The position numbers and the translations under genes are program-made. From positions 124,001 to 188,000 of the forward strand of contig NZ_MAXC01000033.1 of assembly GCF_001693485.1 (NCBI RefSeq): a DNA stretch of 64,000 nucleotides, read 5' to 3'. Below are positions 44,889-47,523 of this stretch, piece by piece (the first letter of the stretch is position 1; the number at the start of each line of letters is the position of its first letter). The notes under the pieces are model-generated. The model was not told the DNA's origin and did not search any database. It saw only the letters and a list, made by a program, of their open reading frames with translations. Source of the stretch: Bradyrhizobium sp. LMTR 3 (GTDB taxonomy: Bacteria; Pseudomonadota; Alphaproteobacteria; Rhizobiales; Xanthobacteraceae).

Positions 44889-45779
44889 ATGGCAGCCAAG
44901 ACAAAATTCCGGGGGTCGTTTACCGCCTTGGTCACGCCATTCAAGAACGGCTCGGTCGACGAGGCCGCCTTCCGCGGCTTGGTGAACTGGCAGATCGCCG
45001 AAGGCACCCACGGCTTGGTCCCGGTGGGCACGACCGGTGAAAGCCCGACGCTGAGCCATGACGAGCACAAGCGCGTGGTCGAATGGTGCATCGACGAGGC
45101 CAAGGGCAAGGTGCCGGTGATTGCCGGCGCGGGTTCCAACTCGACCAAGGAAGCGGTCGAGCTTGCCGAGCATGCGGAGAAGGCGGGAGCAGATGCGGTG
45201 CTGGTGGTGACGCCGTACTACAACAAGCCCACCCAGGAAGGCATGTACCAGCACTTCAAGGCGATCAACGATGCCATCGGCATTCCGATCATCATCTACA
45301 ACATTCCCGGCCGTTCCGTGATCGACATGTCGGTCGAGACCATGACGCGGCTGTTCGCGCTGAAAAACATCGCCGGCGTGAAGGATGCGACCGCCAGCAT
45401 GGTGCGGGTATCGCAGCAGCGCGCGGCGATGGGCGAGGACTTCAACCAATTGTCGGGCGAGGACGCCACCATCCTCGGCTACATGGCGCATGGCGGCCAT
45501 GGCTGCATCTCGGTCACGTCCAACGTCGCGCCGCGGCTGTGCTCGGAATTTCACGCGGCATGGCAGAAAGGCGATCACGCCACCGCGCTCAAACTGCATG
45601 ACAAGCTGATGCCGCTGCACAACAACCTCTTCATCGAAAGCAATCCGGCGCCGGTGAAATACGCGCTCTCGCTGCTCGGCAAGATCGACGAGAAGCTGCG
45701 GCTGCCGATGGTGCCGGTGTCCGAGCCGACGCGCGTCGCCGTGCGCAGCGCCATGGTCCATGCCGGCCTGATCAACTAG
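44889..45779 (+). CDS. dapA: 4-hydroxy-tetrahydrodipicolinate synthase
   Basis: 296 residues. [28 protein letters not shown] (Tyr of the proton relay) and [10 protein letters not shown] (Schiff-base Lys) define DapA, which condenses pyruvate with aspartate semialdehyde for lysine and diaminopimelate. GGAGGAAG ribosome-binding site precedes ATG 44889. mscL and smpB follow on the same strand. Confidence 0.96.
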
Positions 45780-45821
45780 GGCGGTTCCGCTTCGCCTGAA
45801 GAACGAAGAGGGGAAGCCAGC

Positions 45822-46235
45822 ATGCTGAAGGAATTCCGCGAATTCGCGATGAAGGGTAACGTCGTCGACCTTGCGGTTGGCGTCATCATCGGTGCGGCCT
45901 TCGGCGCGATCGTGACCTCGTTGGTCGGCGACGTCATCATGCCGGTGATCGGCGCGATCACCGGCGGTCTTGATTTCTCCAACTATTTCACGCCACTGTC
46001 GAAGGCGGTAAACGCCAGCAACCTGGCGGACGCCAAAAAGCAAGGCGCCGTGCTGGCTTGGGGCAATTTCCTTACGCTGACGCTGAACTTCCTCATCATC
46101 GCCTTCGTGCTGTTCGTCGTCATTCGCGCGATGAACAAGCTGAAGCGCAAGGACGAAGCCGCGCCCGCGCCGCCGAAGCTGACCAAGCAGGAAGAACTGC
46201 TGATCGAGATCCGCGATCTCCTCAAGAAGGGCTAG
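45822..46235 (+). CDS. mscL: Large-conductance mechanosensitive channel
   Basis: 137 residues. [20 protein letters not shown] with [15 protein letters not shown] is the pore helix, a second helix ([19 protein letters not shown]) and a charged C-terminal bundle end the protein. It opens on hypo-osmotic shock. Its TAG stop is part of the palindrome at 46232-46309. Confidence 0.96.
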
Positions 46236-46309
46236 TGCCGCCGATTTGAGGTCCCCACAATGTTTGCCGCGTGTCCGCGTGGGGACCTCAAATCGAAAAG
46301 CGGCACTAG
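46232..46309. repeat. Composite palindrome containing the mscL stop
   Basis: CTAGTGCCGC at 46232 pairs with GCGGCACTAG ending 46309; inside, GATTTGAGGTCCCCAC pairs with GTGGGGACCTCAAATC. The TAG of mscL is bases 46233-46235 of the left arm. Confidence 0.9.
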
Positions 46310-46323
46310 CGATCATAAGTTTG

Positions 46324-46397
46324 CTAGTGCCCTTTGTCTTCCGAAGTTCGTATAAGGGCTCAGCAATCACTGTACGAACTTCGGAAGAGGGCACTAG
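46324..46397. repeat. Composite palindrome carrying the smpB ribosome-binding site
   Basis: CTAGTGCCC at 46324 pairs with GGGCACTAG ending 46397, and CTTCCGAAGTTCGTA pairs with TACGAACTTCGGAAG. The right arm includes GGAAGAGGG, the only ribosome-binding site before the smpB GTG at 46400. It shares CTAGTGCC/GGCACTAG ends with the preceding palindrome but not the core. Confidence 0.9.
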
Positions 46398-46399
46398 CC

Positions 46400-46873
46400 G
46401 TGGCCGAAAAAAAAGAACGCCCGACCAAGGTCGTCGCCGAAAACCGCAAGGCCCGATTCAATTATGCAATCGAGGACACGGTCGAGGCTGGCATCGCGCT
46501 GACCGGCACCGAAGTGAAGTCGATCCGCAATGGCAAGACCACCATTGCGGAGTCCTATGCGGATTCCAAGGACGGCGAGATCTGGCTGATCAACGCCAAT
46601 ATTCCGGAATATCTGCAGGCCAACCGCTTCAACCACGAGCCGAAACGGCCGCGCAAATTGCTGTTGCACCGAAAGCAGATCAACAAGCTGATGGGCGCAG
46701 TCGATCGCGAAGGCATGACGCTGATTCCGCTAAAACTCTATTTCAACGAGCGCGGCCGCGCCAAGCTGTTGCTGGCGATCGCCAAGGGCAAGAAACTGCA
46801 CGACAAGCGCGAGAGCGAAAAGAAGCGCGACTGGGGCCGGGAAAAAGGCCGCCTGATGCGGGCGAGAGGATAG
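46400..46873 (+). CDS. smpB: SsrA-binding protein
   Basis: 157 residues. [54 protein letters not shown] and the basic tail [20 protein letters not shown] are SmpB hallmarks. It delivers tmRNA to stalled ribosomes and works with RNase R (3.8 kb here). GTG start at 46400; the frame is open upstream through the palindrome but without homology. Confidence 0.95.
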
Positions 46874-46947
46874 GGGTGAATAGCGAATAGGGAAATTCTC
46901 TGAAGCCGACCCTTCCATTCGCTATTCGCGAACGAGAGGAAGACGAG

Positions 46948-47523
46948 ATGGCTCAATCCAATCTGCATGAAGTCGACTGGAGCAAGATCCCTCCGCCGGT
47001 CGACGACGGCGCGTCTGCGCATCTCGTCGGCATGGCGATTCCGCCGGTCACGCTGCTGGCCACCGATGATAGTTCGGTGACGCTCTCGGCGCTTCCCGGC
47101 CGCACCGTGGTGTTCGCCTATCCCCGCACCGGGTCGCCGGGCAAGATCAGCCTGGTCGACGACTGGGACATGATCCCTGGCGCGCGGGGCTGCACGCCGC
47201 AAACCTGCTCGTTCCGCGATCTGTTTGCGGAATTGAAAGCGGCCGGCACCAGGCAGGTGTTCGGTCTATCAACCCAGGACAACGTCTACCAGACCGAGAT
47301 GGCGTCACGGCTGCATTTGCCGTTTCCGGTTCTGTCGGATGAAAAGCTTAGGCTCACCCGCGCCCTGAACTTGCCGACCATGGAAGTGGCGGGACTGACG
47401 TTGATCAAGCGGCTGGCGCTGATCGTCGACGATGGGCGCATTGCTCACGTGTTCTATCCAGTTTTCCCGCCCGACCGGAACGCCGCCGACGTACTGGCAT
47501 GGCTGAGGGAAAATCCGCGGTAG
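46948..47523 (+). CDS. Peroxiredoxin-like thiol protein (AhpC/TSA fold)
   Basis: 191 residues. The thioredoxin-fold core shows TVVFAYPRTGSPG followed by GARGCTPQTCSFRDLFAELK, with Cys residues at the peroxidatic region shifted relative to classical peroxiredoxins, then GLSTQDNVYQTEMASRLHLP and PVLSDEKLRLTRALNLPT. Probably reduces peroxides or organic hydroperoxides. Ribosome-binding site GAGAGGAAG before ATG 46948. Confidence 0.82.
   Translation: MAQSNLHEVDWSKIPPPVDDGASAHLVGMAIPPVTLLATDDSSVTLSALPGRTVVFAYPRTGSPGKISLVDDWDMIPGARGCTPQTCSFRDLFAELKAAGTRQVFGLSTQDNVYQTEMASRLHLPFPVLSDEKLRLTRALNLPTMEVAGLTLIKRLALIVDDGRIAHVFYPVFPPDRNAADVLAWLRENPR

Follow-up and report, generated by a model that had tools for sequence, protein, structure and literature searches.

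A CTAG-ended twin-hairpin repeat between mscL and smpB of Bradyrhizobium sp. LMTR 3 and its predicted effect on the smpB start

Background

RIME1 of Rhizobium, said to have been described by Osteras in 1995, is reportedly a rhizobial intergenic mosaic with two large palindromes and a length of about 106-109 bp. In the Correia/NEMIS elements of Neisseria, one stem is formed by the terminal repeats. Among transposition systems, IS5 duplicates a 4-bp target, YTAR, and insertion by a Y1 transposase leaves no target duplication. Correia/NEMIS elements are MITEs, and passages in three papers report that they are cut by RNase III (PMC10969869, PMC2229807, PMC2649163). Bradyrhizobium itself carries GTAG and CGTC REPs, for which sections of one paper give GTAG stems of 6-13 bp and REP lengths of 20-40 bp; CTAG is absent from its main text, outside which the consensus figures stand (PMC3733652). 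A 4-bp target duplication is given for the IS701 family in part of another report (PMC2266710).

In this study, the junction of mscL and smpB was analysed in a window of 64,000 nucleotides from Bradyrhizobium sp. LMTR 3, and all coordinates without a contig or locus label are positions in this window. With a probability of about 85%, we read the two hairpins found there as a mobile repeat of approximately 166 bp that inserts at CTAG, with the second hairpin predicted to block the smpB start and the block tolerated via RNase III or an internal start.

Results and discussion

Layout of the mscL-smpB junction

The mscL gene (45822-46235, forward strand) is an ORF that matched NCBIfam NF010557 with 202.8 bits, and smpB (46400-46873, forward strand) matched NF003843 with 224.6 bits. 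Between them, on the same strand, lie hairpin A (46231-46310), a spacer (46311-46322) and hairpin B (46323-46398). These are the two composite palindromes with common ends and different cores that an earlier note on this DNA had described, and both were located as claimed. A CTAG at 46232-46235, within the outer foot of A, contains the TAG stop of mscL (46233-46235), so the same note had rightly placed this stop inside the first palindrome; a second CTAG lies at 46394-46397. By comparison with a sister element (see below), the two CTAGs, which have no strand, are read as the copies of a duplicated 4-bp target.

The GTG start of smpB (46400-46402), which is aligned in many relatives, begins 2 bases past the right CTAG. 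A putative ribosome-binding site, GGAAGAGGG (46383-46391, forward strand), was found in the 3' arm of B, is buried in the predicted fold, and is the only evident site for smpB. Its location in B agrees with the earlier note, which had set it three bases before the GTG; it is the palindrome's CTAG that ends 2 bases before the start, and the ribosome-binding site ends 8 bases before it.

Directly 3' of smpB, another inverted repeat (GAATAGCGAAT/ATTCGCTATTC) was observed at 46878-46929. Palindromes resembling it were seen at L204:3141-3200 and 3' of smpB in L049, and it probably belongs to another repeat family. In two loci of relatives (L039 and L042), palindromes of the CGTCATTGCGAGC type stand 3' of smpB; these are perhaps CGTC-type REPs.

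Structure of the hairpins

Hairpin A is formed by outer arms at 46231-46241/46300-46310 and inner arms at 46242-46258/46279-46295, giving stems of 11 and 17 bp, a 4-nt bulge (AAAA) on the 3' side and a loop with GCCGCG, a motif common to many loops. The arms of hairpin B are at 46323-46333/46388-46398 (outer) and 46337-46352/46373-46388 (inner), and its 3-nt bulge is 5'. As separate RNAs, A folded at -54.8 kcal/mol (z -10.0) and B at -47.0 kcal/mol (z -10.2), and none of 200 shuffles was as low in either case. The hairpins have common ends, CTAGTGCC/GGCACTAG, and different cores. Both bulges adjoin the spacer, and B, when reverse-complemented, is similar to A, making the twin quasi-symmetric. 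The CTAG feet of A and B that face each other are 14 nt apart here and 13-16 nt apart in the relatives inspected. A terminator-like site at 46302-46331 consists of these inner feet of A and B and was given no weight as a terminator, 2 such sites being present in 45700-46500 against 1.2 expected.

Among the A hairpins, of which 94 distinct ones were compared, standard pairs filled 98.2% of the 2442 pair cells, and 71 cells were changed on both sides (shuffled mean 14.5) as against 23 on one side. These hairpins came from 96 selected sources, most of them found by a pattern fixing much of the 5' arm, and were fitted to the model; as a result, the covariation leans towards structure. For B, changes on both sides were likewise present in an alignment of 21 sequences. 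Where an outer foot differs from CTAG, the inner foot of that hairpin often has the matching sequence, as with CACG. At one conserved locus (L012 and orthologues, 13 distinct records), the A feet are CACG on both sides and B still has CTAG; the CACG feet of this type are a compensated change after insertion.

Strong covariation and a loop motif common to many copies would also be expected of a structured regulatory RNA family, such as a leader or riboswitch, that is not a mobile element. The few one-side intermediates (23 against 71) suit DNA palindromes, or arms corrected by template switching, better than a constraint on RNA only, and no Rfam match above gathering was obtained in 45700-47000. 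Together with the recent multicopy spread and the overall orientation counts reported below, against which stands only a subset of loci running mostly with their genes, this makes such an RNA family hardly probable at all.

Distribution of the repeat

Hairpins A and B together make up a single repeat of ~166 bp without genes. In the 7.8-Mb genome, the strict pattern CTAGTGCC-N(43-73)-GGCACTAG matched three hairpins, which lie at two loci, and the reversed-pattern control found 0. Besides the twin at mscL-smpB, two further twins were found in this genome, a count for which 150 of 6751 candidates were scored, so that weak copies may have escaped it. The twin at C1:439285-439452 has both hairpins in the same order and orientation as at mscL-smpB, with 77% identity, and sits between co-directional AMP-ligase-like and MaoC-like genes, as named by eye; the third, on C54, is more distant.

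In the genus, the strict pattern was present in 40 of 117 genomes, its matches including a few other sequences (e.g. L016 and L017), and the model of B (R2) matched 69 of the 117 at E 0.001. In the family, the model of A (R1) had matches in 68 of 149 genomes, which cover 27 of 47 genera; these are lower bounds, since the counts per genome approach the 31 scored places in several genomes. Among the matches listed, the A arm occurred in records of Bradyrhizobium, Rhodoplanes, Pseudolabrys and Nitrobacter, many of them MAGs. The earlier note had called the palindromes a repeat, and these twins in the same genome and in many others of the genus and family bear it out.

Of 133 chains detected, 80 had two hairpins, 9 had three or four, and 44 were single, some of the last being unrelated and some having a degenerate partner. 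Single hairpins do exist, accounting for 13 of 202 A matches, and no cargo was found between the hairpins of the twins. The twin of the window had 0 matches in 72,556 plasmid records. A description of the repeat was not found in the literature searched, which mostly lay outside subscription journals. In one genome (G105; L011/L103), two twins were observed less than 1 kb apart, one of them directly before an flhB-like gene.

Insertion at CTAG

The repeat has recently been copied in some genomes: one of them (G010) carries, in unrelated flanks, 7 near-identical copies of a sister subfamily, each 165 bp long. A search of this genome with the end pattern of the subfamily (up to 2 mismatches) returned only those 7 copies, all complete, and thus no solo ends. 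One of them (L088) is placed, as judged by eye, where two convergent genes end. At a sister locus, the filled site reads CTAG[161 bp]CTAG. Of 13 relatives with the empty site, 10 have one CTAG there and the other 3 have TTAG. As read from these sites, the insertion duplicated a 4-bp CTAG target in the manner of DDE-type insertion. Because CTAG is palindromic, a duplicated target and a CTAG borne by the element are not told apart by sequence.

Neighbouring twins with one common CTAG occur; examples were observed in the four-hairpin chains L215, L238, L266 and L312, and such chains give the impression of an element inserting into its own ends. In the mechanism we propose, the two hairpins and the short spacer would move as one non-coding repeat, which would insert at CTAG between the mscL stop and the smpB start and duplicate the 4 bp. 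The repeat has features of a MITE: it is short (~166 bp), has no coding capacity, ends in palindromes that are alike when inverted, and shows a target duplication of fixed length, 4 bp (CTAG), at the sister locus and presumably at mscL-smpB. Neither a transposase nor an autonomous relative turned up, the search for solo ends having covered one genome (G010).

Two inverted palindromes, a short spacer, mosaics and tandem copies would also fit a REPIN or BIME whose mover is a Y1 (RAYT) transposase. Movement of that kind calls for a Y1 transposase where the repeat is active and for insertion with no target duplication. The sister site has a 4-bp duplication; the genome with 7 near-identical copies gave 0 Y1_Tnp candidates; and the hairpins measure ~75 nt, against stems of 6-13 bp in described GTAG REPs. 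We therefore consider a RAYT-moved repeat very unlikely. A phage origin was likewise dropped, a search with one pattern having given 0 viral contigs.

In a MAG locus (L261:1888-1960), the ATG of lspA was observed in the loop of a related hairpin whose 3' arm encodes N-terminal residues; this hairpin became coding sequence. The locus was considered as hairpin-flanked cargo and rejected, since the enclosed genes are lspA and one other, and no transposase was recognised by eye.

The mscL-smpB site in relatives

A full-length match to the filled site was found in 5 of 265 genomes of the genus. In close relatives that lack the element, the site is often GGGCTAACGTGG, and others have a longer gap and then ATG. 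One exact pattern, written for the mscL-smpB junction with a TAG stop and no element, gave 0 matches in the 265 genomes. The presumed target can nevertheless be present at this place in the absence of the element: one element-free genome (G099) has CTAG at the mscL stop, the rest of its junction being unlike that of the carriers. Had CTAG been cleanly duplicated in GGGCTA-ACGTGG, the right flank of the carriers would be one base shorter than it is. With the sister site as the guide, the target at mscL-smpB was presumably CTAG and the insertion route the same.

In a tree of the mscL and smpB flanks (27 rows), the 5 carriers did not form one clade: 4 changes were needed, at least 2 of them forced by well-supported branches, with the empty genomes G057 and G087 beside carriers and the carrier G052 among empties. 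On this patchiness, single inheritance by simple descent was rejected. The similar loops of the 5 carriers suggest one origin followed by loss or recombination.

The mscL stop codon at the edge of the repeat

The earlier note had further held that the repeat gave mscL its stop. This was not supported: the end of mscL was readable in 46 of 49 element-free rows, and it stops at the same codon in 38 of the 46 and one codon earlier in the other 8. The mscL stop lies at the edge of the element because CTAG is the target and holds a TAG stop. Among 91 flank clusters, the outer CTAG contains the TAG stop of 14 of the 34 genes that run into the repeat from the A side and of 8 of the 34 that do so from the B side. 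In 119 flanking loci, 40 of 206 CTAGs outside gene interiors are stops, and 91 more CTAGs lie inside called genes. The frequency of stops at the repeat edge is in line with how CTAG is distributed. A repeat using CTAG can thus slip between genes and leave the upstream gene unbroken.

Predicted occlusion of the smpB start

The calculated cost of opening smpB positions -18 to +6 at 30 C was 28.3-36.9 kcal/mol in the 5 carriers and 5.9-19.1 kcal/mol (median 10.9) in 44 element-free rows, in which some genomes are counted twice. In these calculations, the folded mRNA would hide the smpB site, as the earlier note had supposed, and hairpin B should block initiation at smpB. A mobile repeat can evidently replace the start region of smpB, a quality-control gene.

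A stronger claim was that B is a dedicated translational switch, which reversibly hides the smpB site, opens on a signal and tunes trans-translation. The buried site and an opening cost ~20 kcal/mol above that of element-free relatives are in keeping with it. Among the 5 carriers, variable columns are also fewer in the arms (5/106, one counted twice) than in loops, bulges and spacer (10/61; p 0.02) or at third codon positions (98/293); the insertion could also have diverged less through horizontal exchange. No evidence was found for a switch specific to trans-translation, against which speak the small number and patchy placement of the filled sites, the close relatives without the repeat, and one carrier (G110) that has lost the GAGG core and one pair of B. 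The same element also precedes unrelated genes, and a stem of -47 kcal/mol appears too stable to reverse without cleavage or a helper. Such a switch is very unlikely; some regulatory role of the twin at smpB is possible.

On the reading preferred here, that of a mobile repeat at CTAG, the blocked start is most likely tolerated through RNase III cleavage or an internal start. Stems of 23-26 model pairs would suit RNase III. Cleavage of the long stems would free the 3' arm of B, which holds the purine-rich site, and by analogy this is the relief route we prefer. Alternatively, a start signal inside the element may serve smpB. Model mRNAs starting in the 3' arm of B gave opening costs for smpB of 14.4-15.7 kcal/mol. 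The earlier note had named an internal promoter beginning after the hairpin as evidence against it. A scan of 45700-46500 found no forward sigma-70-like promoter and one on the other strand; this is weak evidence, with which an internal promoter in the element is still compatible. The mover of the twin, like any effect on SmpB, is inferred.

An upstream in-frame extension of SmpB from TTG 46334 was considered and is doubtful: the frame is not common to the carriers because G000 has one base fewer in its B loop than the other four.

Orientation at gene junctions

A first count of typed copies gave 35 running with the genes and 4 against, and the overall bias was rejected as inflated by orthologues after flank clustering levelled it. 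Clustering assigned the 202 matches (189 twins and 13 single A hairpins) to 100 flank clusters. Either side had a gene in 91 of these, and the orientation was the same in 29, opposite in 29, divergent in 28 and convergent in 5. Unrelated loci are merged, via element sequence in the flanks, in one shared cluster of 8 records with mixed orientations, and a cluster of 15 members may also contain such loci. Flanking genes were called with a home-made codon model trained on the window, the starts being the nearest in-frame codons.

Loci present in at least two records showed 9 same and 1 opposite, compared with 20 and 28 for single loci (Fisher p 0.012, a post hoc subset); this is the subset noted above as favouring an RNA family. 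In another post hoc subset, the element reached from a stop at one of its edges to the following start at its far edge in 11 of 29 same-orientation clusters and 1 of 29 opposite ones (p 0.002). These stop-start loci include smpB, flhB, modB, quinone-oxidoreductase-like and XdhC-like genes and mraY after a murF-like end, names that are approximate because the short stretches fell below NCBIfam cut-offs. In other genomes, then, the repeat directly precedes flhB-, modB- and mraY-like genes. A stronger ribosome-binding site in B was rejected as the cause of the bias, the anti-Shine-Dalgarno duplex having a median of -5.0 at both ends (97 loci). ATG or GTG stood near the B edge in 18 of 57 cases and near the A edge in 11 of 57, an excess that was not significant (p 0.20).

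One tentative interpretation, which we hold to be doubtful, is that the A-to-B orientation is kept at stop-start bridges as a junction module: the hairpins, as RNA, would re-set downstream translation, and an RNase III cut would uncouple the genes and expose the start signal in the 3' arm of B. If this were true, smpB, flhB, modB, mraY and others would be under one mobile post-transcriptional control. If the orientation bias at junctions holds, the domestication of mobile hairpins as translation signals becomes directly testable.

Comparison with known systems

The twin is an ordinary kind of element, a MITE-like twin-palindrome repeat between two genes, and it resembles a MITE or a mosaic of the RIME/BIME type. 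Like the Correia/NEMIS elements, as sections of the papers cited above describe them, it falls within 100-170 bp, is gene-less, adjoins genes and would form hairpins in mRNA; it differs in having two separate hairpins and a CTAG target. With RIME1, as described, it has in common two palindromes in an intergenic mosaic, at about 166 bp as against about 106-109 bp. The GTAG/CGTC REPs are palindromic repeats of the same genus that, in the parts of the text concerned, form dimers and clusters (PMC3733652), whereas the twin has ~26-bp stems in 75-nt units. IS701 and IS5 are like the twin in the 4-bp target duplication and differ from it in that no transposase was seen with the twin.
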